Positions 17,984 to 32,737 of a stretch of DNA of 41,584 nt are shown here, one piece after another. This DNA is from Verrucomicrobiota bacterium (GTDB taxonomy: Bacteria > Verrucomicrobiota > Verrucomicrobiia > Verrucomicrobiales > DEV007). Positions within the stretch are counted from its first letter, which is position 1. Each line of letters starts with the position of its first letter. Both the position numbers and the translations under genes were made by a program. The notes under the pieces were generated by a model that was given only the letters and a program-made list of their open reading frames with translations, made no database searches and had not been told where the DNA came from. The stretch covers positions 24,322-65,905 of the forward strand of contig JAHDID010000021.1 of assembly GCA_020630975.1 (NCBI GenBank), in the 5' to 3' direction.

Positions 17984-18445
17984 ATGCTAGTCACACCACA
18001 CCACTCGATAGGCGACCTCGTACTCGGTATGCACGAGGAAGACGTCACCGCTATCCTCGGCCAGCCACAGGAGCGCGATGAAGAGATCGATCCCGACGAC
18101 AATGTCTCCATTCACTACACCTACCCGCAGCAAAACCTACAGCTCACCTTCTGGGGCGACTGCGATTTCAAGCTAGGCTCCATCACCTGTGCCGATCCCG
18201 CCGCCACTCTCGATGGCAAAGCCATCGTCGGTATCTCCGAGTCCGACCTCACCTCACAGCACCCCAGCTTCGCCCTAGAAGACTCCATCGACGATGATGA
18301 TAGCGATGACGAAGCCGGCTGGCAAAACTACGAAGATCTCGAACGCGAGCTAAACGCCTGGCTAGCCGAAGGCAAAGTCCAAAACATCTCCATCGGCCCC
18401 GCCTGGCAGGACGATGAAGAAACTCCCATCTGGCCAACTACCTAA
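17984..18445 (+). CDS. Acidic hypothetical protein
   Basis: 153 residues, starting 8 bp after the stop of the DUF4175-like gene and therefore probably in the same operon. No signal peptide or membrane segment is visible. The N-terminal half (IGDLVLGMHEEDVTAILGQPQERDEE...) resembles small cytosolic beta-sheet proteins that begin with a short G-M-s-x-x-D-V-x-x-x-L-G-x-P motif, as in SmpA/OmlA-like and immunity-type folds. The middle has an Asp-rich run (EDSIDDDDSDDEAG). No family was assigned with confidence. Confidence 0.7.
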   Translation: MLVTPHHSIGDLVLGMHEEDVTAILGQPQERDEEIDPDDNVSIHYTYPQQNLQLTFWGDCDFKLGSITCADPAATLDGKAIVGISESDLTSQHPSFALEDSIDDDDSDDEAGWQNYEDLERELNAWLAEGKVQNISIGPAWQDDEETPIWPTT

Positions 18446-18480
18446 ACCCAACGTGCACCCATTACTCACAGCCCCAAAAA

Positions 18481-18513
18481 AGATGTGGCAGCGAGCGTCA
18501 GCGAGTGGACCGC
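18481..18513 (+). repeat. 33-bp dispersed element, copy 1
   Basis: Starts with AGATGTGGCAGCGAGCGTCA and is matched at 28 of 33 positions, same orientation, by 41538-41570. It lies in the 172-bp gap between the acidic hypothetical gene and the squalene-cyclase-like gene. Its internal ATG is in frame with the latter. Confidence 0.8.
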
Positions 18514-18585
18514 CCTACCCCGGCCCATACCCCACTTCAAAAATCAAAAATCACCACTCATCAATCCCCCACAGCAAAAACAGCT

Positions 18586-18623
18586 ATTGTACCCTATTCA
18601 ATAAAAACTGTACCCTATTGAAT
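18586..18623 (-). repeat. Paired 17-bp repeat, 21-bp period (copy B)
   Basis: On the plus strand, ATTGTACCCTATTCAAT lies at 18586-18602 and ACTGTACCCTATTGAAT at 18607-18623, with a 4-nt AAAA spacer and 21-bp period. Orientation relative to the downstream gene is opposite to copies A and C. The second unit contains the TTG (18618-18620) proposed as the start of the squalene-cyclase-like gene. Confidence 0.9.
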
Positions 18624-19673
18624 TTACTCCTCCTCTTCTCCTTCTCTCCCTTTCTCCTCTTCTCAAACCTCAACGCCCAATCCCTCTCCAACGCAGTATT
18701 CCAAAAGCACCAAACCGCCGTCGAGCTAGCCGTCGACCGCGGCCTAAAACACCTCGCCGAAGCCCAAAACCCCGACGGCACCTACGACGACGACTACGGT
18801 CGCTCCACCGGCGTGGTCTCCCTAGTCGGCATGGCCTACCTATCCGCCGGCCACACTCCAGGCTATGGTCAATACGGCAAGTCGCTAGAGCGCTGCATCG
18901 ACTACGTGCTAGCCAGCCAGCGCAGCAATGGCATGCTCGACCAAGGCGACAGCGGCCATGGCATGATGTACGCGCACAATATCGCCACCCTATTTCTCTC
19001 CGAAGTCAGCGGCATGGTCGACCACCAGCGCCAAGACCGCATCGAGCGCGTGCTCGCCCGCGCCACCAAACTACTCCTAGCCGCCCAGGCCGTGCCCAAG
19101 ACCGAAGGTCACGCTGGCGGCTGGCGCTACAAACCCGAATCCAAAGATTCCGACCTCTCCTGCAGCGGCTGGGCACTCATGGCCCTGCGTTCCGCCAAGC
19201 TGAACGGTGCCGCCATCCCCGATCGAGCTATCGACAAAGCTGTGCGCTACATCTTCAAAAACCACAACAAAGAGTCCGGCTCCTTTGGCTACACCAACTA
19301 TTGGAAAAATGCCCAGTCCCTCACCGGCTGCGGCCTACTCTGCCTAGAGCTCTGCGGCTACCACGGCACCGACAGTACCTATCGCTCAGGCGATTTCATC
19401 CTCCAGCATCGCAACGATATCGTCGACAAAGCCCACGAGTACTACGCCAACTACTACAATGCCCAAGGCATGTTCCAGCTAGGTGGCAAATACTGGCAAC
19501 AATACGCCGACTGGATGTACTCCGAGTACCTACCCAAACAACAAATCAACGGCTCCTGGACCAACGGCCGCATCGGCACCACCTACGGCACGTCGATGAT
19601 GGTACTGTCCTTCACCGTACCCTATCGCCAGCTTCCTATTTATCAGCGGGATGAAACGGTGGACGAGAGGTGA
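18618..19673 (+). CDS. Secreted squalene-cyclase/prenyltransferase-repeat protein
   Basis: The frame is open from 18414, but there is no ATG between 18483 and the conserved part. Starting at the TTG at 18618 gives a clean signal peptide (MNLLLLFSFSPFLLFSNLNA) and 351 residues. The alternative ATG at 18483 lies inside a dispersed repeat and would add a Pro/Ser-rich N terminus that does not look like a protein. The mature part is an alpha/alpha-barrel with QNPDGTYDDDYGRS, GGWRYKPESKDSDLSCSGWALMALRS and QQINGSWTNGRIGTTYGTSMMVLS, the QW-like repeats of the squalene/oxidosqualene cyclase superfamily. It has no DXDD catalytic motif, so it is probably a structural or binding member. Its pairing with a DUF4175-like gene is common in PVC bacteria. 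Confidence 0.83.
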   Translation: MNLLLLFSFSPFLLFSNLNAQSLSNAVFQKHQTAVELAVDRGLKHLAEAQNPDGTYDDDYGRSTGVVSLVGMAYLSAGHTPGYGQYGKSLERCIDYVLASQRSNGMLDQGDSGHGMMYAHNIATLFLSEVSGMVDHQRQDRIERVLARATKLLLAAQAVPKTEGHAGGWRYKPESKDSDLSCSGWALMALRSAKLNGAAIPDRAIDKAVRYIFKNHNKESGSFGYTNYWKNAQSLTGCGLLCLELCGYHGTDSTYRSGDFILQHRNDIVDKAHEYYANYYNAQGMFQLGGKYWQQYADWMYSEYLPKQQINGSWTNGRIGTTYGTSMMVLSFTVPYRQLPIYQRDETVDER

Positions 19674-19708: not shown

Positions 19709-20728
19709 CTAGCTCGGCTCCAAAATAGAACCTGAAAAACAAAGTGGATTTTCCACAGTACCATCTTTTAGTTTGGCCAGATGTTGATTGTGAAAACGGT
19801 CGAACATGAACTCATTGTAGCTAGAGTCCCACGTTAGCTGCATCGGACCTCGGCAGGTTACGGCATTGGTGTCGAGTGGTGGCGACATACCGAGTAGCAG
19901 ATGATTGTTCAGCACGTGTTGCTTTTGCTTCTTTCGGGCAGCATCGCAGTGCACCAGCTGGCTGCAGCACACCCGCCTACCTCGTTTCACGTGTCGCTTC
20001 ACAAAGCTCTTATCTGGGTGATTGTGCCCACCTTTTGTCCCTACCGACACAAAGACTTCGGAGGGTTGGATTTTGTCGAAACACCCTTCGTAGCTAGCTG
20101 CATCCCGTTTGATCGGTGCTCCATGGTGCGGGCCTACCAGCATGAGTGGCTCATCATCTGTGCAGACCTCAGTGAGAGTCTGCATGGATGCATCTCCTGG
20201 CCATATTACCTGCCGCTCGTCGTGGATATCTAGGCAGATGATACCAGATACCTCATTGGGCTTTGGACCTTTTCTTGCCAGATTGTCGATTGCATCCCCG
20301 AAATCCGGGTGAACTGCAGAGATTAGGATCGAGCCATCATCGTTCCAATACAGATGCTTAGGCTGCTCATCTACCTCTAGTCGGCTGAGCTTGATCTTAC
20401 CTTTTGTGTGATAACTTTTCACTATCTGGAGCAGCTCTTTGATCTTCTCTGTATCACGATCGATCATCATGACCAGGCGGTCGATTCGTGTGTGATACCT
20501 CTCTAGCAGATCGTCGAGACAGCCTACATGGTCCTCATCATTATGAGTGATGACAATAGTGTTAATGCTAAGATCTGGCCGCTCGTGCAACCACTCGACA
20601 AGAGCACTGCGCGGCGGCCCTACATCGATGATGAAAAGCTCACCGTTTGGCAGATGGATCACAGAGCAATCGCCCTGCCCCACATCCCAAAAATCAACTT
20701 TAAGCTTGATCGGGCTAGTCTCAGCCAT
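19709..20728 (-). CDS. ComEC-like metallo-beta-lactamase-fold hydrolase
   Basis: 339 residues, soluble, with no membrane segments. The metal-binding motif is THNDEDHVG (His62, Asp64, Asp66, His67). WDVGQGDC at 14-21, WPGDA with Asp179, and PHHGA with His201/202 are the ComEC/Rec2-type MBL signatures. Stand-alone members are candidate nucleases or phosphodiesterases; the substrate is unknown. The start ATG at 20728 overlaps the end of the preceding gene by 8 bp, so it is translationally coupled. It is the last gene of the defence operon starting at hsdR. After the MBL core, about 130 residues have no recognised domain. Confidence 0.87.
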   Translation of the reverse strand: MAETSPIKLKVDFWDVGQGDCSVIHLPNGELFIIDVGPPRSALVEWLHERPDLSINTIVITHNDEDHVGCLDDLLERYHTRIDRLVMMIDRDTEKIKELLQIVKSYHTKGKIKLSRLEVDEQPKHLYWNDDGSILISAVHPDFGDAIDNLARKGPKPNEVSGIICLDIHDERQVIWPGDASMQTLTEVCTDDEPLMLVGPHHGAPIKRDAASYEGCFDKIQPSEVFVSVGTKGGHNHPDKSFVKRHVKRGRRVCCSQLVHCDAARKKQKQHVLNNHLLLGMSPPLDTNAVTCRGPMQLTWDSSYNEFMFDRFHNQHLAKLKDGTVENPLCFSGSILEPS

Positions 20729-21461
20729 TTCGTTTCTTTTCTAGCCTCTCTAGGATGAAGTCTGGAACGTCATCGTTAGTCAGGGCTGGGATCTCGGCAA
20801 GAGCCTGGTCGACGTCTTCGATAGCAGGGCGCGGGGTTACCCCTCTTATTCCGACGATCTCACCGTCATCATCGACGGTAAACCAAGCGCCAAACCTCTG
20901 CCCATCCTCCAAGACTCGCAACTGATTGGCTAGTGCTTCGCTCAATTCGATTCGATCGGTAAGATATTCCAGGAAAACGCGGGCTCGGTCGCGGATGACT
21001 GTCGCCTCGCGATACCTGGGCATCTCTCGACTCTGGCAAAACTGGCGGTAGTCGACATCCTTACAGATGTTTTCGAAACACACTTCCTCGGTCTCAGTTA
21101 GCTCACCTTGCAGCGACTTGCCGTAAAGCTCTAGAAAGCGTCTGCCCACATGTTTGGGTAACTCCTGAATTTCCCGTAGGTCTACCTGTAGCCCCCATCC
21201 GATAATCTCAACAACACCCTCGGCATCGGTTAACCCGATCTTCAGAGACCGATTGGCCCGAAGAGGCTTTACTTCCCCTACTGGAAACGAGGTCCCACCG
21301 TACTCCATCTCCACATCGAATTCTTGATGCGGGATGATTGTTGCAGTCTTGAAATCGGCCTCAACTCGCCATTCCTTCTCCAGCCCTTCGATTAGATCAA
21401 TCGAAGTTGGCTGAGAAGCTAGGCCCTCAGTTATTTTGCCGTCTAGTGTAGCTGCACTCAT
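20721..21461 (-). CDS. Unknown protein, middle gene of the MBL/TIGR04255-like trio
   Basis: 246 residues from the ATG at 21461, whose ATGA overlaps the TGA of the upstream gene. The frame extends 12 nt further, but this start is better. The first 100 residues look beta-rich (EVVEIIGWGLQVDLREI). A helical, charged middle follows with ICKDVDYRQFCQSREMPRYREATVIRDRARVFLEYL, and the C-terminal part includes WFTVDDDGEIVGIRGVTPRP. No signal peptide, membrane segment or known catalytic motif is visible and I do not recognise a family. Tight coupling on both sides suggests it forms a complex with its neighbours or acts in the same process. Confidence 0.8.
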   Translation of the reverse strand: MSAATLDGKITEGLASQPTSIDLIEGLEKEWRVEADFKTATIIPHQEFDVEMEYGGTSFPVGEVKPLRANRSLKIGLTDAEGVVEIIGWGLQVDLREIQELPKHVGRRFLELYGKSLQGELTETEEVCFENICKDVDYRQFCQSREMPRYREATVIRDRARVFLEYLTDRIELSEALANQLRVLEDGQRFGAWFTVDDDGEIVGIRGVTPRPAIEDVDQALAEIPALTNDDVPDFILERLEKKRNG

Positions 21462-22270
21462 CCTTGGAAACAATTTAACGCATCTTCAGAAAATTGCGCT
21501 TGAAACTGACTGAGGATCAATTTGTGGGCGCTGTCTAGCTCTTTTAGAGCCTCAGATAGGGGCTGATCTTCTCGAGCAGACAAGCTGCTATATTCGAACA
21601 CTACGTTGAAACCACTCTCCGCAGCCGATTCGAAGTTGATCTTCAAAACTGCATCATTCCCGACTGGCTGATTCGTTTCGATTTTGAATGGTGCTTGATA
21701 AGCGGCTACTTGGCCATTGGGACTTGGAATAAACGAAAGGATCTTACTCAAAGACAGCTTCCCATTCGCCCAAAGATCAGGGAATCGTCCCAATCCGATA
21801 TCGTTCACATAACGCAGCGTTATGCCTCCCAGATGATCGAGTCCAAATGATTCAATAAAATCAGGGGTCCACCGCTCGACTTCAGATTCTAGCGCGCTAA
21901 ACCGAGTGACATCTTCGGACTGCCGCCATTGAGAGAATCTTAGCACTTGAGGCAGTGGCTTAGCCAGAGGATCGGTTTCGATCGATGGAACAACCTCGAT
22001 CCCCATAACTGGCTTCGAATCAATTTTATTTAACAGTTGGGGGATCTGATAGAGGCGTGCTTTAGGTTTGGGAATACCGCCAGCATCCTCGATCCGAAAC
22101 ATCCAAAACTGGCGAATGTCCTGGGCATTGTACTGACCGTTCTCTGCGACTTTCGCTAACCAATTGGGGATCTCCGACTCGAAGAGCGTCTCATCTAGAT
22201 CAATCTTGATGTCTAGGCACCGTTGGACTACTGGCGAATTTGTAAAGGAGCTGAGGTCTTCGCTGTTCAT
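21458..22270 (-). CDS. TIGR04255-like protein
   Basis: 270 residues, cytosolic. Several features fit TIGR04255, a sporadically distributed family of unknown function. They are a central RFSALESEVERWTPDFIES followed by GITLRYVNDIGL, and a C-terminal helix with LDSAHKLILSQFQAQFSEDAL, matching the family's x-I-G-L-R-Y-x-N and LDxxHxxI..xF....T.EA patterns as I remember them. The N-terminal conserved block is weaker, so the call is tentative. The gene starts 28 bp after the PD-(D/E)XK nuclease gene and its stop overlaps the next ATG by 4 bp. Confidence 0.6.
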   Translation of the reverse strand: MNSEDLSSFTNSPVVQRCLDIKIDLDETLFESEIPNWLAKVAENGQYNAQDIRQFWMFRIEDAGGIPKPKARLYQIPQLLNKIDSKPVMGIEVVPSIETDPLAKPLPQVLRFSQWRQSEDVTRFSALESEVERWTPDFIESFGLDHLGGITLRYVNDIGLGRFPDLWANGKLSLSKILSFIPSPNGQVAAYQAPFKIETNQPVGNDAVLKINFESAAESGFNVVFEYSSLSAREDQPLSEALKELDSAHKLILSQFQAQFSEDALNCFQG

Positions 22271-22298
22271 CGATTGTTAGTAATTAGAGATTCAGTTA

Positions 22299-23369
22299 TC
22301 ACTTCCCTTTAAGAAACGTAACCGTATTTTGAACTACAGGCACAATTTCATTGACTATTGTTCCTTGATCAACATCGAGATCGTCCCAACGTTTTAAGGT
22401 TTCCTTGCCGCGTTCATTCACGGAATTTTTGTACCTTGGAAATTCGTTTTTTATGTTCTTGAGTACTTCTGGTTGGAGCTCTTTTCCTTCTTTCCGGCTC
22501 GCCAAGAGGAACACCCAACCCCGTTCCCAAATCCAAAGCTCGAAGACAATTCCTTGCTGTAAATCAAAGATGACTCCACGTTTTGAGTGTATCCATTGAT
22601 TAATCGATGGATCATCCAGTTCGCGGCGCACCAAATCAGAAATACTAGCTGTTCGAGAACCCAGTTTTTTGATAAACTGATTTTTGATTTTCAACAAATG
22701 ATCAATGCTATCTATATTCGATCTATAAAACTCTTCTTCAGGTGTGAAATCCATACTGCTGGGCTGTGCGAGTTGTTTGGTGGTTTTGATGAAATCTAGG
22801 AGGTATTGCAGCCACTTCGGATCGGCTTGATGGAGGTGTGGGCCTAAGTTGTTTTCCAATTCCTCCCACAACTGGTCGTAGGTGATTGATTGGAAATCGG
22901 GTATTTCCTCAGAGGCTACTGGGTGCAAGCCCAGTACAAATTTAAGGGCTTGGTTGTCGTTTTCTTTTACCAGCTTATCAATAGACTTCGAATAATCGGC
23001 GAAGTCATTGGCTAACCAATGGTAAATCTTATTCTCAATCGCTATGGTATGGGTTTCCGTGTTGATAACCAAGTCGATTCGGTTTCCTTCGTCAGTCGAG
23101 CGTTCACGGTTTATCTCCATGCAATTGCTCGAAATTGCGCCGTCTTTGACTCCTGCCAATTTCCCTAGGGATTGAAGCAGCAGATCTCCGAGGCCATGTT
23201 CCTCTTCGGGGTCGAAGTAGAAACTCAGAATATTGCTGCAGACATTCTCGTAGTGAGGGTAGCCTGCGACCTGCATAATCGTCCGAGAGGAGCGTTCGCT
23301 AGGCAATTGCTCTAACTCAACGAGAAGTTGCTTGTATTTTTCCAAACTATCTACTGCTGTATGGCTCAT
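22299..23369 (-). CDS. PD-(D/E)XK nuclease superfamily protein (PDDEXK_4-like)
   Basis: 356 residues from the ATG at 23369. A TTG at 23405 overlapping the previous gene is an alternative. The nuclease core is RIDLVI (Asp99), a turn, then IAIENKI (Glu112, Lys114), giving D-x(n)-E-x-K. It is preceded by HYENVCSNILSFYFDP, the usual opening of this family, with Glu41 likely catalytic. The remaining about 200 residues are helical with a C-terminal beta region. Such proteins are found in restriction and anti-phage islands and are inferred to cut DNA. GC content is lower than in the hsdR and hsdM genes. Confidence 0.83.
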   Translation of the reverse strand: MSHTAVDSLEKYKQLLVELEQLPSERSSRTIMQVAGYPHYENVCSNILSFYFDPEEEHGLGDLLLQSLGKLAGVKDGAISSNCMEINRERSTDEGNRIDLVINTETHTIAIENKIYHWLANDFADYSKSIDKLVKENDNQALKFVLGLHPVASEEIPDFQSITYDQLWEELENNLGPHLHQADPKWLQYLLDFIKTTKQLAQPSSMDFTPEEEFYRSNIDSIDHLLKIKNQFIKKLGSRTASISDLVRRELDDPSINQWIHSKRGVIFDLQQGIVFELWIWERGWVFLLASRKEGKELQPEVLKNIKNEFPRYKNSVNERGKETLKRWDDLDVDQGTIVNEIVPVVQNTVTFLKGK

Positions 23370-23397
23370 AGGTCTCTGGCGTTTATTCGAGTGACTT

Positions 23398-24393
23398 TCA
23401 CTCAATCGGCCAAAGGACCGTGGTAAGTGGCAAAAGCAACTTTCCTTCCGTGTCGAAGCTCGAATAGTACGTTTCGATCAGTCGGGCTAGACCATCTAGG
23501 TCGAGTAAGGTGATGGGTAGCTCGGAGCGGTCGCCTTCGTATCTGGCATCTTTTGAGAAGCCAACGGTGGATAGGTAGATGCCTCGGTCGCCTTTTCTCA
23601 GAGCTCCGATGAAGCTACGGATATCTTGGGAGCCCATCTTGGTGCCTTTGCGGTGCTTGACCTCGGCTTTGATTCTTGGCTCCTGTAGGCCGAGGCCGTC
23701 GGGCGAGGCCATCACGTCGACTCCGCGATCGGCGCCTATGGGGCTGACGGTGGTGCGGTAGCCCATGGCTCGGAGTACGGCGGCTAGTAGCTCCTCCATC
23801 TGTCGGTCGTCGAGTAGCACGATGCGATCTTTGAGTTTCTCGCGAGCCTCTTGAATCAAGTTATCTCGATCGGCGAATTCTGTGACTTCGTCTTCTGCGG
23901 TAGGTTCGGTAGGATCAGGGGCTTGGGTTTGGCCCTGAGATACACGCAGCATGTCTTGGGCTGCATCCTCGGGTAGCTTGAACAGCGTCAGCGGCGACCC
24001 TAGGGAGTTTTTGGTAGCTACTTTCAGGCTGTCGCGGAATATCGATCGATTGATCCAGTTCACCTTACGCCGATGCGGATTCTCACGGTCGGATAGCTCT
24101 GGGTAGTAGCCACCGACGAATATGCCCGGCCAGTAGCAGCGAGCACCGGCATCGTAGGTGATGATGTGGTCGCCTTCGGAGATGTCGTTGGCGAAGCGGT
24201 AGAGCATACCGACCGGAGTAGCGATCTCTTGCCGCGAGGCATTGGGTAGGCTTTGGGATTTGATCTCGATCAGAGTCTCTTTCGACTTGCCGGTCAGGTC
24301 TTCGTGGATTCCGAAACCGACGCCGACATAACCCGCCTCGAATTCCTCTAGCGATTCACCGCCGTTTGATCTGACCATCCAGATGGTATTCAT
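23398..24393 (-). CDS. Mrr-type restriction endonuclease with N-terminal EVE/PUA-like domain
   Basis: 331 residues. The C-terminal Mrr_cat domain has GADRGVDVMA (Asp226) and IKAEVKH (Glu244, Lys246), followed by SQDIRSFIGAL, the classic D-EVK-Q arrangement of type IV enzymes. The N-terminal about 145 residues (IWMVRSNGG..LEEFEAGYVGVGFG, DHIITYDAGARCYWPGIFVG) resemble the PUA/EVE-like modules found on Mrr proteins, which could read modified bases. The start ATG at 24393 overlaps the hsdS stop by 4 bp, so it is translated with the type I genes. Type IV nucleases normally attack foreign modified DNA, so the HsdM mark presumably has to be tolerated. Confidence 0.9.
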   Translation of the reverse strand: MNTIWMVRSNGGESLEEFEAGYVGVGFGIHEDLTGKSKETLIEIKSQSLPNASRQEIATPVGMLYRFANDISEGDHIITYDAGARCYWPGIFVGGYYPELSDRENPHRRKVNWINRSIFRDSLKVATKNSLGSPLTLFKLPEDAAQDMLRVSQGQTQAPDPTEPTAEDEVTEFADRDNLIQEAREKLKDRIVLLDDRQMEELLAAVLRAMGYRTTVSPIGADRGVDVMASPDGLGLQEPRIKAEVKHRKGTKMGSQDIRSFIGALRKGDRGIYLSTVGFSKDARYEGDRSELPITLLDLDGLARLIETYYSSFDTEGKLLLPLTTVLWPIE

Positions 24394-26144
24394 GATTCTT
24401 TTGATTCTTGAGTGGCTGAGGTGACGATGCTGTCGGTGAGGGTTATTTGAGTAGCTTGGGCAGATGCAAGTCTATTGTGCAGGCGACCGCACAGCGTCAA
24501 AATCTGACTAACCTTTGCGACAATACGATGCTGTTCATTTAAGGGAGGAAGAGGGAATGGTAGTAGATCTATGTCTTTGTTATTTATTTGGGGGACGCTA
24601 GTTCCCGAGTTAAGGCTCGCTAGATCAATGGTATCTAACCAAACCCTTGTCCATTCGAGGCTTACTAGCGAATAAGGAGTTACTGTCATTATATTCAGGT
24701 CAACAAAAATTGACTGAAAAATATACCGCTTCTTATTAGTCGCTATGGCTCCTCCCCTTTTGGGAAATGCAATACTATTTTTTGGGATTAATTGAGCAAC
24801 ATCATTCTCTGATGGGTTAATAAATCTAGTCGAAGTAACCAGCTCTTCTGTGTTTTCAACCAGATTCATGTCTCCCACTTTACAAAATGGATATTTACCT
24901 TTTTCCAATTCCTTTTCCTTTGGGAAAGCTGTTCCACTTTTTAATGTAACACACGTACCGAAGGAGCACCATTCCCAGCCTTCAGGGGGCACGTAGGGCT
25001 GCTCATTAACGGGAGGCAATTTCAATTCTTTTTGCTTCTTTATCTTTCCTTTTTCGATTAACGTCTCTTTCTCGGAATTAATCAGCTTCAATAACTCCGA
25101 AGCAGGCTCATCCTCGGGATCTTGGGGGACTAGTTTGCCCATTACGGCTAGTTGGAGGATGGCTTGTTTTAAGTGGTCGATGCTGGATTCGGTGGTGAAG
25201 AGAAGGTCGAAATTGGATTCCAGTTTTTGCCAGGCTTGTTGAAATTGGGCGGCGTCGTTGGTGGCGGAGGTTAGGGCGTCGAGCAGTGTGGTCACCAGCG
25301 TTTCATGGGTGGCGATTTGGTCTTCGGTTTGTTGCTCCAGCTGGTCGCAGAGAGCCATCAACTCATCCACCTTCGCCACGATTCGCTTTTGCTCGGCTAG
25401 GGGTGGGAGGGGGATAGTGTAGATATTCAGCTTATTCCCGACCAAGTGCTTGATTGTAGAACCGGAAAAATATTCTTCTAAAACTCCCGATCTTGCATCA
25501 GCGGTCAGACACATTTGGAGAAATTCCGGCAAGTTACCCGCTAGTGTTCTCGCTCTATGCAACGCCTTTTGGAAATACATAGGCCCAGTGCTTTCCTCGT
25601 TCCAAATAGCACACCTTCCCGGCTCTCCTCCTTCACAAATTAATAGATCGCCTTTGGTCAGAATGAATTCCTGCTGTTCTTCAGGAGGAATTTTCATCGT
25701 TTTTAAATCATCAAGTTCAAACTGATGCCACTGAACATTTGTGTTTCTCAAATACACGCATTCTTCACCTTTGTTCTTAGCCTTATCCAACATCTTTCCT
25801 AGACGAGAAATAGCAATATCCGAGAAGCGAACCCAAGACCAATTTTCAGGTACAGCATACCTCTTTTCATCAGCTGAAATTGGAGGGAATTCTTTCTGTT
25901 TTTTTATTTCTCCATCTTCGAAAAGTTTCTTCTTTTCGATTTGTGATTCTCTAACCAAATCCTCTGCACACCCGTCTATCGCACTTTGCTCTACCAACAA
26001 TCCCCGAATCGCCAAATCCAATATCAACTCCCGCAGCTTTTTCACACCATACAGCTCCCGCTTTCCGCCACTACCACGGCCACTCGCTTTCTTCTCCCGA
26101 ACGGTCGAAGTCCAGAGTTCCAAGTTATCTGTAATCACATCCAT
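24390..26144 (-). CDS. hsdS: Type I restriction-modification specificity subunit
   Basis: 584 residues with the duplicated layout of HsdS. Two target-recognition domains each end in a conserved helical region: PLPPLAEQKRIVAKVDEL around 244-261 and PLPPLNEQHRIVAKVSQIL around 531-549. An N-terminal helical segment (ELYGVKKLRELILDLAIRGLLV) opens the protein. It selects the bipartite DNA target for HsdM and HsdR. The TRD stretches are visibly AT-richer than hsdM and hsdR, as expected for exchangeable domains. It begins 4 bp after the hsdM stop. Confidence 0.95.
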   Translation of the reverse strand: MDVITDNLELWTSTVREKKASGRGSGGKRELYGVKKLRELILDLAIRGLLVEQSAIDGCAEDLVRESQIEKKKLFEDGEIKKQKEFPPISADEKRYAVPENWSWVRFSDIAISRLGKMLDKAKNKGEECVYLRNTNVQWHQFELDDLKTMKIPPEEQQEFILTKGDLLICEGGEPGRCAIWNEESTGPMYFQKALHRARTLAGNLPEFLQMCLTADARSGVLEEYFSGSTIKHLVGNKLNIYTIPLPPLAEQKRIVAKVDELMALCDQLEQQTEDQIATHETLVTTLLDALTSATNDAAQFQQAWQKLESNFDLLFTTESSIDHLKQAILQLAVMGKLVPQDPEDEPASELLKLINSEKETLIEKGKIKKQKELKLPPVNEQPYVPPEGWEWCSFGTCVTLKSGTAFPKEKELEKGKYPFCKVGDMNLVENTEELVTSTRFINPSENDVAQLIPKNSIAFPKRGGAIATNKKRYIFQSIFVDLNIMTVTPYSLVSLEWTRVWLDTIDLASLNSGTSVPQINNKDIDLLPFPLPPLNEQHRIVAKVSQILTLCGRLHNRLASAQATQITLTDSIVTSATQESKES

Positions 26145-26148
26145 ACCG

Positions 26149-27588
26149 CTATTTCCCAGATAAAACCTCTGATAAAATGCCTTTCAACTGATCGCGCAGA
26201 TCCTGGATCTCGCCTTGCTGCTCGTGATACCTCGCCAGCAATTCCTCGGGATCGTGATCCTCTTCTTCGGCCTGATGAGGATTGGGTATATCGAGGTTGT
26301 AACCGCGTTCTTTGATTTCATCGATCGATACCTTCCAGGCGTGCTCGTTTTCCTCGCGCTTGTTCCACCATGCCTTCTCCGCCTCGAATTCCTCGATGCG
26401 GATGGGCTTGGTTTTGTTGTAGGACTTCACGCCTAGTGGGTAGGGGTGCTCGTAGAACCAGACTTCCTCGGTGGGTTTGCCTTTTTCGAAGAAGAGTAGG
26501 TTGGTCTTGATGCCGGTGTAGGGATTGAAGACCCCATTGGGCAGGCGGACGATGGTGTGTAGGTTGCACTCCTCTAGGAGCTTTTCTTTGATGCGGGTTT
26601 TCACGCCTTCGCCAAATAGGGTGCCATCTGGCAAAACCAGCGCGGCGCGGCCAGTGTCCTTTAGCCGACGGAGGATGAGCACTAGGAAGAGGTCAGCGGT
26701 CTCGCGGGTGCGGTAGGCGCTGGGGAAGTTCGACTCGATGCCGTCCTCCTCTCGGCCACCGAAGGGTGGATTGGTGATGATGATGTCAACTTTGTCAGAT
26801 TTGCCATAGGAGGTGAGTGGCCGGGCCAGGGTATTGTCGTGGCGGATCTGCGAGGGCACGTCGATGCCGTGTAGCAACATATTGGTAACGCATAGCTGGT
26901 GAGGCAGGGCTTTTTTCTCGACGCCGTGGATGGCGGCCTGTAGCTGCCGGCGGTGGGCATCGGAGCTGACCTGCTGGCGCAGATGCTCAATGGCGCAGGT
27001 GAGAAAGCCACCAGTGCCGCAGGCGGGGTCTAGCACCGACTCGCCCAGCTGGGGATCGATCTGGTCGACGATGAACCGGGTGACGGCACGCGGGGTGTAG
27101 AACTCGCCCGCATTGCCCGCTGCCTGTAGATCGCGCAGCAGTTGCTCGTAGAGATCACCAAAGGCGTGGCGATCGTCGGTGGTGGTGAAGTCGATCTCGT
27201 TGAGCTTGTTGATCACCTGCCGCATCAGGTGGCCTTTTTTCATGTAGTTGTAGGCATCCTCGAAGGCGTGCTTGACCACGTGGCCCATCTGATTGGCGTC
27301 GGTGAGGGTCAGGTCCTGCAGGGTGGGGAAGAGATCGTTATTGACGAAGTCGATCAAATCCTCGCCAGTGATGCCCTCGAGATCGGTGGCCCAGGCACGC
27401 CACTGGTAGCCTGCGGGGATGATCGAGACGTAGTCATCGTCCTCGGCCTCTAGCTCCTGATCGCGGTCGTCGTAGATCTTCAGAAAAAGCATCCAGACGA
27501 GCTGCGAGAGACGCTGGGCGTCGCCATCGAGGCCCTCGTCCTGGCGCATGATGTCCTGGATCGATTTGACGGTGGTAGTGAGAGACAT
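26149..27588 (-). CDS. hsdM: Type I restriction-modification adenine methyltransferase
   Basis: 479 residues from the ATG at 27588, which gives the family opening MSLTTTVKSIQDIMRQDEGLDG...LVWMLFLKIYDD. The frame opens earlier, to 27672, but that part runs into an inverted repeat. The SAM-binding motif is DPACGTGGFL at 187-196 and the N6-adenine motif NPPF is at 273-276. It pairs with HsdS to methylate adenine in the target and protects the host from HsdR. Confidence 0.96.
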   Translation of the reverse strand: MSLTTTVKSIQDIMRQDEGLDGDAQRLSQLVWMLFLKIYDDRDQELEAEDDDYVSIIPAGYQWRAWATDLEGITGEDLIDFVNNDLFPTLQDLTLTDANQMGHVVKHAFEDAYNYMKKGHLMRQVINKLNEIDFTTTDDRHAFGDLYEQLLRDLQAAGNAGEFYTPRAVTRFIVDQIDPQLGESVLDPACGTGGFLTCAIEHLRQQVSSDAHRRQLQAAIHGVEKKALPHQLCVTNMLLHGIDVPSQIRHDNTLARPLTSYGKSDKVDIIITNPPFGGREEDGIESNFPSAYRTRETADLFLVLILRRLKDTGRAALVLPDGTLFGEGVKTRIKEKLLEECNLHTIVRLPNGVFNPYTGIKTNLLFFEKGKPTEEVWFYEHPYPLGVKSYNKTKPIRIEEFEAEKAWWNKREENEHAWKVSIDEIKERGYNLDIPNPHQAEEEDHDPEELLARYHEQQGEIQDLRDQLKGILSEVLSGK

Positions 27589-27630
27589 GGGTGTGGAATT
27601 GAGGAATGAAATGATGAGTTTTTCGAGCCC

Positions 27631-27718
27631 AAGGAGGGGCGTGCCTTTAGCCGCCCGGCTAGCTTGGCACAATGGCTTCGGCTCGGGTAGCTGGGCGGCT
27701 GAAGGCGCGCCCCTCCTT
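27631..27718. repeat. Inverted repeat with 30-bp arms between hsdR and hsdM
   Basis: Arms at 27631-27660 and 27689-27718 are complementary at 27 of 30 positions, separated by a 28-bp loop. Each arm carries GGGCGGCT(A/G)AAGGC(A/G)CGCC when read from the inside out. It lies in the 203-bp gap between the hsdR stop and the hsdM start. It could form a strong RNA hairpin that reduces readthrough or protects the downstream transcript. A repeat-derived origin is inferred. Confidence 0.85.
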
Positions 27719-27791
27719 GAGGAAAGTTGTCGGAGCGAGATATTACAGAAAGCGAAACAAAAGGCACGGATTTATTCCTGTGAATGAATAA

Positions 27792-30290
27792 CTAGGCCGC
27801 ATACAGCGCATTCTCCAGATTTCGCACCGAGCGCAGGTACTCCTCCTTGCCGCCGAACAGGCGAAAGATCTCGAGAGGTCGGCCCATGTCGCTGATGGGT
27901 GGCACCTTGATCAATTCTACAGGCTTGGTGTCGAATTCCTTTAGCCCGTGGTCGGCGTATTTGGTCAGCAGGGCGTCTAAGACAGCTCGCGCCTGCTCGC
28001 TGTGCTGGGCGTAGGCTTCGTGCTGTTTGGCTTTCTGTGCGCGCTGACTGCGGGTCAGAGCGGGCTGGTCGAAGGCGTAGTGACAGATCAGATCGAATGG
28101 GTCGTAGTCCTTGCCAATCTTGTCGCGTAGGGCTTCGAGTATAAGGCCCTGCTCTTTTAGCTCGTCTACGATGGCTGTCTTCTGCTCCTCGGCGGACCAG
28201 CGGCTGAGGAAGTCGTCTAGCGACTGAAAGTCCTGGGCGACGGTCTTTTTGGTGTAGTCCTTTAGCGAAGCGGTGATTAGCTTGCCATCGCTACCGAGGT
28301 ACTGGATGCGCTCGGAGATAACCCGCACGTCAACACCTCTGACTCGGTATTTGCGCGGCGGCTCAGTGCCACCGCCTCCCTCACCAAAATCATCGTCAGC
28401 CCCCTCTCCTAGCTCGGGTGAGCTAAAAGGCCCATACTCGCCCTCGGGCTGTGAGTCTTCGCCCCCATCACCTTCGGAACCAGTGTCAGCACCATCCTCT
28501 TCAGGTGGTATCATCGGCCCGTCCTCATCCGGCTCATAGATCTGAACCGGATCGCCATCGAAATCGGGATCGGCAAACAGCTCGGTGGCTTTGCGGAAAT
28601 CGATAATGGTGAAGAAGGTCTTGCCATACTCCTCATTGATACGAGTACCACGACCGATGATCTGTTTGAACTCGGTCATCGATTTGATGGTGCGGTCGAG
28701 CACGATCAACTGACAAGTCTGAGCATCGACACCAGTGGTCATCAGCTTGGAGGTGGTAGCGATCACAGGGTAGTTCGATTCGGGATCGATGAAGTTGTCC
28801 AACTCGGCTTTGCCCTCGGCATTGTCGCCGGTGATCTGCATGACGTATTTGTCATTTTTAGCACAGTGCTCGCCATTGTGATTGACCATGGCCCGCCGCA
28901 TGCGCTCGGCGTGATCGATATTTTCACAGAAGATGATGGTCTTGGCAAAAGGCGTGCCCCGCTCCTCTAAAAACTGAGTCACCTTTTTCGCGACGAGATC
29001 GGTGCGATCATCGATGACCATGGTGCGATCGTAGTCCTTAGCATTGTAAGTGCGGTCCTCGATTTCTTGCCCGAAAACATCGGTCTCACCTTTCTCCGGG
29101 CGATAGCCTTCGGCATCGACATTGAGCACTGGCTTGATCACTTTGTAAGGGGCTAAGAAACCATCGTCGATCCCCTGCTTTAGCGAGTACGTATAGATCG
29201 GATCGCCAAAGTAGTGGATATTCGACGCCGCCTTGGTCTCCTTGGGTGTAGCGGTCAAACCCACCTGGGTGGCCCCGCTGAAGTACTCCAAAATCTCGCG
29301 CCACTCCGAGTCCTCTCGCGCACTCCCACGGTGACACTCATCGATGATGATGAGATCGAAGAAGTCTCGGCTGAACTGCTTGTAGACTTTTTTATCCTCG
29401 GTAGGACCTGTGAGCGCCTGATAGAGAGCGAGGTAAATCTCTCGAGAGGTATCAACTTTTCGACCTGAGGCACTTTTTTCGATAGCGATCTCCTGCTTTA
29501 CCTGTGTCCCATCGCTCCGCTCAATCGTCTTCGACTTGGTCGAAAGCTTGGCCATGGCATCGCCGAGAGGGCGAAAATCATTGACCATGGTCTGGTCGAC
29601 TAAAATGTTTCGATCGGCTAGGAACAGGACACGCTTTTTGCGTTTCGACTTCCACAAACGCCAAATGATCTGCAGAGCGGTATAGGTCTTGCCCGTGCCC
29701 GTGGCCATGACCAGCAGGATGCGGTCCTGCCCGCGAGCGACAGCATCGATCGTCCGATTAATCGCATTTAGCTGGTAGTAGCGGGGCGTCTTGCCCGAGC
29801 CATCAGAGTGAAAATCCTGCGTGATGAGGGGCAGCTGCTCTTTGCCCCACTTCTCGATTTTCTGCCACTGGCTCCACAGTGATTCTGGCGATGGAAACGC
29901 ATCTAAAGTCAGCTCTCGCTCACTAGTGTAAGTCGGCTGAAACAGATCTCGCATGATAAATCCATCGCCATTCGAAGAAAACACAAATGGAACCGGCAAC
30001 ATCCTGGCATACTCCAGAGCCTGCTGCATACCTGCTCCGATGGCCTTGTCATTCCGCTTTGCCTCTATGATGGCTATGGGAATATTGGGCTTGTAGAATA
30101 AAATGTAATCAACACGCTTGCCCTTTTGCCGAGCTGACTGATCTCCGAACACTTGGATTCGACCATTTGTAAGCGGGAACTCCTCATACATCTGAGTCTG
30201 GATATCCCAGCCTGCCTGCTGTAAGGCAGGAGTGATGAACTTGGTGCAAATGTCTCTTTCGCTGAGCTTGAGCTTCTCTTGTTTGTTCAT
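27792..30290 (-). CDS. hsdR: Type I restriction endonuclease motor subunit (EcoEI-like)
   Basis: 832 residues from the ATG at 30290 (MNKQEKLKLSERDICTKF). The N-terminal PD-(D/E)XK nuclease has RVDYILF (Asp61) and IIEAKR (Glu76, Lys78). The superfamily 2 translocase has ATGTGKT with Lys201 and DECH at 317-320, then GLTATPKE and later helicase motifs including IGRGTRINEEYGKTFF. An acidic Gly/Asp/Glu-rich linker precedes the C-terminal HsdS/HsdM-contact region. Length and linker fit the EcoEI-type HsdR. It is the first gene of the island on the minus strand; the upstream 146 bp should contain the promoter. It diverges from the SDR gene. Confidence 0.96.
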   Translation of the reverse strand: MNKQEKLKLSERDICTKFITPALQQAGWDIQTQMYEEFPLTNGRIQVFGDQSARQKGKRVDYILFYKPNIPIAIIEAKRNDKAIGAGMQQALEYARMLPVPFVFSSNGDGFIMRDLFQPTYTSERELTLDAFPSPESLWSQWQKIEKWGKEQLPLITQDFHSDGSGKTPRYYQLNAINRTIDAVARGQDRILLVMATGTGKTYTALQIIWRLWKSKRKKRVLFLADRNILVDQTMVNDFRPLGDAMAKLSTKSKTIERSDGTQVKQEIAIEKSASGRKVDTSREIYLALYQALTGPTEDKKVYKQFSRDFFDLIIIDECHRGSAREDSEWREILEYFSGATQVGLTATPKETKAASNIHYFGDPIYTYSLKQGIDDGFLAPYKVIKPVLNVDAEGYRPEKGETDVFGQEIEDRTYNAKDYDRTMVIDDRTDLVAKKVTQFLEERGTPFAKTIIFCENIDHAERMRRAMVNHNGEHCAKNDKYVMQITGDNAEGKAELDNFIDPESNYPVIATTSKLMTTGVDAQTCQLIVLDRTIKSMTEFKQIIGRGTRINEEYGKTFFTIIDFRKATELFADPDFDGDPVQIYEPDEDGPMIPPEEDGADTGSEGDGGEDSQPEGEYGPFSSPELGEGADDDFGEGGGGTEPPRKYRVRGVDVRVISERIQYLGSDGKLITASLKDYTKKTVAQDFQSLDDFLSRWSAEEQKTAIVDELKEQGLILEALRDKIGKDYDPFDLICHYAFDQPALTRSQRAQKAKQHEAYAQHSEQARAVLDALLTKYADHGLKEFDTKPVELIKVPPISDMGRPLEIFRLFGGKEEYLRSVRNLENALYAA

Positions 30291-30436
30291 CAGGCGGGGA
30301 GGCAAAATGCCGCCCGAACTCTAACATGAGATCCAATCTAAGCGATAAAATCTGCCGATTTTTTAAATGGAAGAATGGCGCAGATGCTCCGTGCATTCCC
30401 CTTTTGTATTCTCTCCGCTAACCATTTCTTATCTCA

Positions 30437-32014: not shown

Positions 32015-32737
32015 TTATCGCTCATCCGAACCTTTGATGAAGCCGAACTCGATATACCTCGCCAAACCATCGAGATCGGGGAATAGACTGAAGTCGTGGA
32101 AGCCGGATATGGCCAGATTGTAGCGGATCGATGGGGCGAATTCAGGCGCGATGTAGAGCTTGGAAAACTTGCCCTGCAAAGCTGGTGCTTCGTTTACCGC
32201 CTCAAACTGACCGGACTCACGATCGAATCGGGTAACGGTGAACACGCCACCCTGAGAGGTGATCCGCGGAGTGATGTGTGGCGGCTCGTAGACAGCTCCG
32301 ACAGGTGCTTGATCGGGGGCGACTGAAGTGTTCCGCGGATCAATGAGGCTCGACTCATCTGGCCGATACATCCACACCACTCTCGGCTGCCCCTCTCGAC
32401 CGGGCTGCGACACGGCAAACCACAGGGCTGCCATAGCGTGGTGAGACCAGTCTAGCAAACGGGTAGCCAGCCCGTGGTGCTGCGCTAGAGCCGTGAGCTC
32501 CCAAATATCGTCGATCGAGCGCCCGATCAGCGGATAGGCAGCCTTCTCAAAGTCAGTGAGCATCTGCGACTCGGTGAACAAGATATCAAACTCTGAGTGC
32601 ACTCGAGCTAGCTTGGGAAGCAGCGGCCAGTCCTCTCGCTGCCCCCGAAATAGGTGAAAACCTCCACCCTGACACTCCGTGGCTACAAAGTCGGTGTAGT
32701 CACTCAAGCTGCTGATCTCAAATTCCTGTGTCGCCAT
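32015..32737 (-). CDS. FRG-domain protein
   Basis: 240 residues. The FRG signature is complete: LFRGQREDWPLLPKLAR around 29-45 with the F-R-G core at 30-32, ALAQHHGLATRLLDWS at 83-98, AALWFAV, and a later SQGGVFT. FRG domains have no established enzymatic activity. They occur often in anti-phage and toxin contexts. Here the gene stands alone in an accessory stretch about 1.7 kb from the start of the type I restriction island and on the same strand as it. No toxin or antitoxin partner is adjacent. Confidence 0.87.
   Translation of the reverse strand: MATQEFEISSLSDYTDFVATECQGGGFHLFRGQREDWPLLPKLARVHSEFDILFTESQMLTDFEKAAYPLIGRSIDDIWELTALAQHHGLATRLLDWSHHAMAALWFAVSQPGREGQPRVVWMYRPDESSLIDPRNTSVAPDQAPVGAVYEPPHITPRITSQGGVFTVTRFDRESGQFEAVNEAPALQGKFSKLYIAPEFAPSIRYNLAISGFHDFSLFPDLDGLARYIEFGFIKGSDER

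Follow-up and report, generated by a model that had tools for sequence, protein, structure and literature searches.

A type I restriction operon in a Verrucomicrobiota genome with two nuclease genes and a separately inherited three-gene cassette at its 3′ end

Whether a run of closely spaced genes for nucleases forms one defence system, or an ordinary restriction operon that has gathered other genes, is the question raised by a locus in Verrucomicrobiota bacterium (Verrucomicrobiales; DEV007). We analysed 41,584 nt of its genome (assembly GCA_020630975.1, 7.1 Mb, 158 contigs; contig JAHDID010000021.1, positions 24,322–65,905 of the forward strand), referred to below as the window. Eight intact co-directional open reading frames (ORFs) occupy positions 19709–30305 of the minus strand of the window, in the 5′ to 3′ order hsdR, hsdM, hsdS, a gene for an Mrr-type nuclease, a gene for a PDDEXK_4 nuclease, and three genes that we call the cassette, namely T4255 (a distant relative of TIGR04255), UNK (an unknown protein) and a ComEC-like metallo-β-lactamase (MBL) hydrolase. 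The initial annotation of this stretch suggested a layered or compound system. Our analysis instead favours, with a probability of roughly 0.58, a type I operon whose 3′ end gathered the Mrr-type nuclease, the PDDEXK_4 nuclease and an independent T4255-UNK-MBL cassette with a predicted DNase, possibly serving as a fail-safe of the PrrC kind.

The restriction core and the genes behind it

The subunits HsdR, HsdM and HsdS all lie intact in this one locus. HsdR (27792–30305) matched the EcoAI/FtnUII family model NCBIfam NF046051 with 1142.4 bits (cut-off 550) and contains VDYILFYKPNIPIAIIEAK, GTGKT and DECH motifs; its called start is a TTG at 30305, and the start at 30290 given by the initial annotation is the next ATG. 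HsdM (26149–27672), the N6-adenine methyltransferase subunit, matched Pfam N6_Mtase (285.2 bits) and HsdM_N (39.5 bits) and has an NPPF motif. The specificity subunit HsdS (24390–26144) has two target-recognition domains, with Pfam Methylase_S matching in two stretches and PADLOC Specificity_I covering residues 3–577. As judged from these profiles, the restriction core is a complete type I restriction-modification operon of the ordinary kind. It is followed by two cargo genes. The Mrr-type nuclease (23398–24393) matched Pfam Mrr_cat (70.5 bits; cut-off 21) and PADLOC PDC-S02 (221.4 bits, residues 1–329), and the catalytic D...(E/Q)xK of its Mrr_cat domain is present as D...EVK (DVMASPDGLGLQEPRIKAEVK). 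The PDDEXK_4 nuclease (22299–23405) matched Pfam PF14281 (55.9 bits; cut-off 22.3) and PADLOC PDC-S26 (263.2 bits). T4255 (21458–22270), UNK (20721–21473, with a likely start at the ATG at 21461) and the MBL gene (19709–20728) complete the run. The eight co-directional genes headed by hsdR, hsdM and hsdS, and the Mrr-type, PDDEXK_4-like and ComEC-like MBL assignments of the initial annotation, were borne out by these profiles, by Lactamase_B and by the ComEC structure 9ic4 (see below).

The genes are tightly spaced. A gap of 119 bp separates hsdR from hsdM and one of 4 bp separates hsdM from hsdS; hsdS overlaps mrr by 4 bp, and mrr overlaps the PDDEXK_4 gene by 8 bp. In the tail, a 28-bp gap precedes T4255, T4255 and UNK overlap by 16 bp, and UNK and the MBL gene overlap by 8 bp. 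The previously reported overlaps of 4 bp between hsdS and mrr and of 8 bp in the tail agree with these values, but a further 4-bp overlap reported in the tail fits only the alternative ATG of UNK, which yields an ATGA overlap with T4255; the ORFs as called overlap there by 16 bp. A scan for sigma-70 promoters and terminators did not rise above shuffled sequences (6 promoters versus a mean of 8.9; 11 terminators versus 12.0).

A reverse test started from hsdM: at E 1e-60, 40 of 179 genomes had a match, a count that takes in the genome of the window. In the 14 best loci from other genomes (63–81% identical), tblastn found no Mrr, PDDEXK_4 or cassette gene (0/14). The region beyond hsdS was visible in nine of these 14 loci (a tenth, L095, shows just 0.9 kb of it), and at least five of the nine (L084, L085, L087, L088 and L093) had other co-directional genes there. 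The region after hsdS in these type I operons is thus a site of changing cargo. Relatives of the Mrr-type and PDDEXK_4 nucleases, searched at E 1e-15 among the 179 genomes, occurred in four and five other genomes, respectively, with different sets of neighbours, and none of the four Mrr relatives had hsdS beside it within about 1.5 kb. Two of the five PDDEXK_4 relatives directly followed HsdS (L040:1504–2577, by BLAST) or an HsdS-like gene (L043:1000–2100, by eye). The PDDEXK_4 nuclease may itself be a recurrent type I cargo.

The combination of all eight genes was seen in the window genome alone (0/14 nearest hsdM loci, 0/14 other cassette loci); one other genome (G082) had both hsdM and the cassette, on different contigs. 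When the neighbourhoods of the last genes were compared with and without hsdRMS, as the initial annotation had proposed, the last three were mostly seen without restriction genes, and the eight-gene unit that it envisaged did not hold. A single layered eight-gene system is contradicted by this distribution, given the 0/14 nearest hsdM loci and the 11 of 15 cassettes without a restriction operon. The tight spacing of all eight genes could still be taken to favour one compound system in which three nucleases and the MBL hydrolase act together, but with the combination confined to the window this is very improbable. The part of the compound idea that stood is narrower, in that four of the 15 cassettes lie within or at the end of modification-based operons.

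Distribution of the cassette

Among 189 genomes from the order, UNK and T4255, used as separate queries, matched the same seven, the two genes adjoining each time. A UNK profile matched six of the 387 phylum genomes and, after enlargement, five of the 384 class genomes. The three lists overlap, and their union comprises 14 Verrucomicrobiota genomes, including the window's own. An MBL profile scan of viral contigs added IMGVR_UViG_3300031903_000090 (L051, refound as L052), giving a sample of 15 loci from 14 Verrucomicrobiota genomes and one IMG/VR contig; the genomes sampled were Verrucomicrobiota, and we make no claim that the cassette is restricted to them. A scan of genome contigs returned contigs already in hand (L027 is L015, L028 is L016).

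T4255, UNK and MBL were intact and in fixed order in 12 of the 15 loci. In L059, the contig ends directly after UNK; in L060, the MBL gene is broken and UNK is open; and in L032, UNK is open, an MBL remnant ends after about 35 residues and T4255 was not seen. The breakage of MBL while UNK stays open in two of 15 loci (L060, L032) is as might be expected of a costly effector. Every one of the 12 intact copies had overlapping T4255 and UNK ORFs, nine times with an overlap of exactly 4 bp, and the UNK and MBL ORFs overlapped in 10 of the 12. Furthermore, pairwise identities were correlated between the three proteins (n = 12), with Spearman coefficients of 0.63 (T4255–UNK), 0.69 (T4255–MBL) and 0.76 (UNK–MBL), and permutations reached the observed values 3, 0 and 1 times in 5000, respectively. 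These correlations show shared history, not function. Thus, T4255-UNK-MBL is a co-inherited unit with a fixed gene order, separate from the restriction operon.

No restriction operon was seen around 11 of the 15 cassettes, three of which (L059, L016 and L029) lie on contigs of 3.0–8.1 kb with distant neighbours out of view; in L020, a cytosine methylase is encoded on the opposite strand at a distance of about 4 kb. The other four cassettes are in a co-directional run with modification-based defence genes, twice of type I, once of type II and once of Hma, itself a predicted system (PMC8565338). Besides the window, these are L051/L052 (hsdR-hsdM-hsdS, a GmrSD-like gene, then T4255-UNK-MBL), L031 (type II methyltransferase and restriction endonuclease, two further genes, then the cassette) and L017, in which HmaB and HmaC enclose the cassette and the one small gene that follows it; HmaA was found further upstream, in L081. 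The four defence-associated copies occupy four separate positions on the cassette tree: the window groups with L015 and L016, L017 with L020 and L019, and L031 with L030, and L051 stands alone at the base of the group of L058, L019, L017, L020, L059 and L060. Because these copies do not cluster, repeated installation is suggested; that is, the cassette joined different modification-based defence operons several times. Four tree positions in defence operons are not predicted by plain scattering, although the clustering of defence genes could explain them.

The same neighbourhoods bear on defence-island hitchhiking, in which the cassette would be a stand-alone defence or conflict module, functionally unconnected with restriction, that reached the restriction-modification and Hma operons solely through the gathering of defence genes there. 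This reading differs from the preferred one on coupling alone, and we place it slightly short of even odds. The absence of a restriction-modification operon from 11 of 15 cassettes speaks for it, as do the differences in kind between host systems (type I, type II, Hma), the integrases or recombinases that L030, L051 and L017/L081 have within 3–17 kb of the cassette, and the other genes found after hsdS in other type I loci; four of the 15 cassettes, however, are co-directional within an operon run, one of them enclosed by HmaB and HmaC, a closer arrangement than an island neighbourhood, and all four defence-associated loci include a predicted methyltransferase.

In L017/L081 (G075:C32), HmaA, HmaB and HmaC were accompanied by a large TmtA-like gene and a phage-type integrase upstream, with the cassette inside; L081 also had a weak Mrr match near the Hma genes on the other strand (31% over 116 residues). 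Among mobile elements, three scans of viral contigs with UNK gave no match, and T4255 of L020 had no match in plasmid records. The window MBL found distant ComEC-like proteins in 69 plasmid records; the L020 MBL had no match in plasmid records at E 1e-15 and two matches in phage records at E 1e-6.

The three cassette proteins

The MBL protein is the proposed DNase effector of the cassette. In addition to Pfam Lactamase_B (41.7 bits), its profile matched the solved ComEC nuclease domain (PDB 9ic4, Competence protein, E 4.7e-20; 30bt, 1e-19), and the residues of the ComEC metal site (H62, D66, H67, D179, H202 and H237) were invariant in 10 of 10 aligned MBLs. No large insertion relative to the ComEC domain was seen in this sequence-level comparison, in which profile positions 4–248 aligned to 2–245. 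The protein is thus predicted to be a metal-dependent DNase of the ComEC kind.

A cassette-specific C-terminal extension runs from about residue 255 to 339, with C255, C261, C292, C330, D310 and H316 invariant in all 10 sequences, and is possibly a metal site or a regulatory lid. The ComEC-like plasmid proteins do not align to it; all 30 matches listed, of the 69 records, end by residue 272 of 339.

Partial PADLOC matches of the window MBL were obtained to RTasMBL (E 2.1e-8), PDC-M48B (best 2.4e-8) and LmuA (2.4e-6). Membership of three known groups was rejected: the anti-phage 6A-MBL model NCBIfam NF058524 gave 19.4 bits (cut-off 220), the Avs1a model of NCBIfam 17.5 bits (cut-off 420), and PADLOC PDC-M48 was matched partially by the MBL through M48B, T4255 and UNK matching no PADLOC model at E 0.1. 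No named defence system in the libraries searched reached its threshold for the cassette, and neither a PrrC nor an ABC-type domain was matched by the three cassette proteins in Pfam, PADLOC or NCBIfam.

UNK had no match at E 0.1 in Pfam, PADLOC or PHROGs, and one NCBIfam row at E 0.073 lay far under its cut-off. Pfam returned a single chance-level row for seven UNK proteins (DUF3012, E 0.05, in one of the seven), six UNK and T4255 proteins searched against PHROGs gave no match, and the UNK and T4255 profiles had no match at E 1 among PDB sequences. An AlphaFold2 (AF2) model of UNK, built from a 4-row alignment, had a mean predicted local distance difference test (pLDDT) score of 70.1 and a fair core (residues 51–220), in which residues 151–217 form a barrel weakly resembling an oligonucleotide/oligosaccharide-binding (OB) fold. 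The best VIA-align match of residues 151–216 to the OB/S1 type reached Z 6.1 (below 8) over 60 residues, with a root-mean-square deviation (rmsd) of 2.6, and the best Foldseek match had E 0.058. In this model, therefore, the C-terminal domain of UNK appears weakly OB-like.

T4255 is the proposed control or sensor subunit. The TIGR04255-like label of the initial annotation stands as distant kinship: a profile–profile comparison (hhalign) linked T4255 to TIGR04255 with a probability of 95.9 (E 5.8e-9), and the TIGR04255 model matched two of seven aligned T4255 members (best E 8.7e-7). The window protein itself, however, had no hit to the NCBIfam model at a threshold as loose as E 1, and the curated cut-off of 30 bits was not reached. 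On profile evidence, T4255 is only a distant relative of TIGR04255. The best structural row for its model was 6d7y_B, chain B of a CdiA toxin complex (Z 8.4, rmsd 4.4, 122 residues, 7% identity), which, from an incomplete title, we take to be the immunity protein; Foldseek and VIA gave no firm match to this model.

Among 145 genomes, five contained TIGR04255 proper, at seven loci; in six of these loci the gene was followed by at least one short same-strand gene. These neighbourhoods would suit a regulatory or sensing role. The superfamily was not found by name in the literature searched.

Among the short TIGR04255 operons, that of L049 includes a PIN-domain gene and that of L044 a HEPN-like gene (20.5 bits; Pfam cut-off 22), that is, two of the seven loci. 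In L046, L047 and L050, the TIGR04255 gene is followed by an overlapping second gene with a shared 'WDG' motif (by eye) and no Pfam match at E 0.01.

Possible role of the cassette and the flanks of the operon

Within the preferred reading, the MBL protein would be the metal-dependent, ComEC-kind DNase effector and UNK its partner, which may pass DNA to it through the OB-like domain as the OB fold does within ComEC. T4255 would keep the UNK/MBL pair inactive or sense infection. Beside a restriction enzyme, the cassette could then provide a second, suicidal or broadly DNA-degrading line once restriction is blocked or overwhelmed. A known parallel for such a role is PrrC, a toxic nuclease whose gene is part of the type IC operon EcoprrI; PrrC is held by the type I enzyme and acts as a fail-safe upon restriction block (PMC3874165, PMC12707154, PMC3506569). 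The likeness lies in a predicted nuclease gene within a type I operon (the window and L051/L052). In contrast, PrrC is a single anticodon nuclease, whereas the cassette consists of three unrelated proteins without PrrC homology, has a DNase-like MBL effector and mostly occurs without restriction genes.

DNA binding by the OB fold of ComEC, and a marked enhancement of the MBL nuclease domain by that fold, are described in PMC12455585, and for this reason a split OB-plus-MBL DNase is reasonable but unproved. The cassette MBL shares the active-site pattern of ComEC (H-x-D/H-x-D-H ... PHHG ... HP) and has a suggested OB-like partner (PDB 9ic4, 30bt), but the cassette encodes separate small proteins and no membrane channel. 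DNA-uptake genes were not noticed among the listed cassette neighbours, although no search was aimed at them. That the cassette is an anti-phage 'split ComEC' DNase (UNK plus MBL) under a TIGR04255-type sensor, repeatedly installed in modification-based operons as a DNA-destroying fail-safe, is at present a doubtful proposal.

The order of the genes also recalls an addiction or toxin–antitoxin module, in which the MBL would be a toxin with T4255, with or without UNK, as its antidote, and would stabilise its carrier operon or element. Overlapping genes with the effector last, an MBL broken in two of 15 loci, the association of TIGR04255 relatives with a PIN gene and with a HEPN match short of the threshold, and the CdiA toxin complex chain (6d7y_B) as the best structural row for T4255 would all fit. 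That structural match, however, came from a T4255 model with a pLDDT of 57, and the three genes, of about 210–340 aa each, exceed the size of usual toxin–antitoxin pairs, which are smaller. We consider this module unlikely.

Tuck et al. (PMC12799240) describe MBL pro-nucleases that move with proteases among Hachiman, AVAST, Lamassu and DRT systems. By analogy with HamM, Avs1a and CanC, T4255 or UNK could be a protease, so far unrecognised, whose cleavage of the MBL activates it. The effector superfamily is shared, nuclease–protease pairs have been acquired repeatedly by unrelated defence systems (PMC12799240), and the window MBL has the partial matches to RTasMBL, PDC-M48B and LmuA, of which RTasMBL and LmuA are MBLs of the systems described by Tuck et al. 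Such a gated pro-nuclease is nevertheless quite improbable, considering that T4255 and UNK, neither of which has an assigned fold, matched no protease family in Pfam, PADLOC or NCBIfam, that the MBL aligns with the ComEC nuclease domain without any large insertion, and that its score for Avs1a is far below the cut-off. The cassette resembles HamM-HamA, Avs1a-Avs1b and CanABC in the use of a ComEC-type MBL effector across unrelated defence systems; it differs in having no recognised protease (trypsin- or caspase-like in those systems), no sign in the sequence alignment of the two disordered insertions that gate their MBL active site, and in having UNK, T4255 and a C-terminal four-cysteine extension.

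That toxin-like genes form a general theme of restriction operons was proposed in 2012 (PMC3506569). The window resembles the type I and type III operons with toxin-like cargo described there in its accessory nuclease genes beside hsd genes, but the part of that source available to us names HEPN, Sir2, ParB and REase-fold proteins and not T4255-UNK-MBL. Our literature search, which covered few subscription journals, found no description of the cassette. Possibly, the cassette is a defence module, or a back-up, that has so far gone unrecognised. If it is a defence module, ComEC-type MBL nucleases would have a further control route in addition to proteases of the trypsin and caspase types, the TIGR04255 superfamily would gain a functional context, and nuclease back-up within restriction operons would have a second testable case after PrrC.

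Several points weigh against the reading of a type I operon with a fail-safe cassette. Coupling to restriction does not appear essential, because 11 of 15 cassettes have no visible restriction operon, and defence clustering alone could unite these genes, the count of 4/15 having no matched control set. The identity correlations take no account of the species tree, and both broken MBL genes come from draft genomes and could be assembly errors. UNK had no match in plasmid and phage records at E 1e-3 or 1e-2. A single transcript for the operon is suggested by gene spacing, which is the sole basis for cotranscription. The OB match of UNK is weak and comes from a 4-row alignment, chance arrangements being common at Z 6.1, and the model of T4255 is of low quality (mean pLDDT 56.8). 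The defence role of the cassette is itself a proposal drawn from sequence.

The gene flanking the operon on the left (18414–19673, plus strand; junction 19673/19709) is conserved in related genomes, where it is often followed by lipB (by-eye reading; 7 of 13 loci read). A blastx comparison of 19 related loci found no restriction-operon genes within about 1.5 kb downstream of it. The G+C content of the eight-gene block (0.51) is below that of the left (0.558) and right (0.544) flanks. On the right, 1.7 kb beyond hsdR and on the far side of a short-chain dehydrogenase/reductase (SDR) gene, an FRG-domain protein is encoded at 32015–32737 on the minus strand (Pfam, 78.6 bits; PADLOC PDC-S15, 227.8 bits) and is a candidate defence gene.

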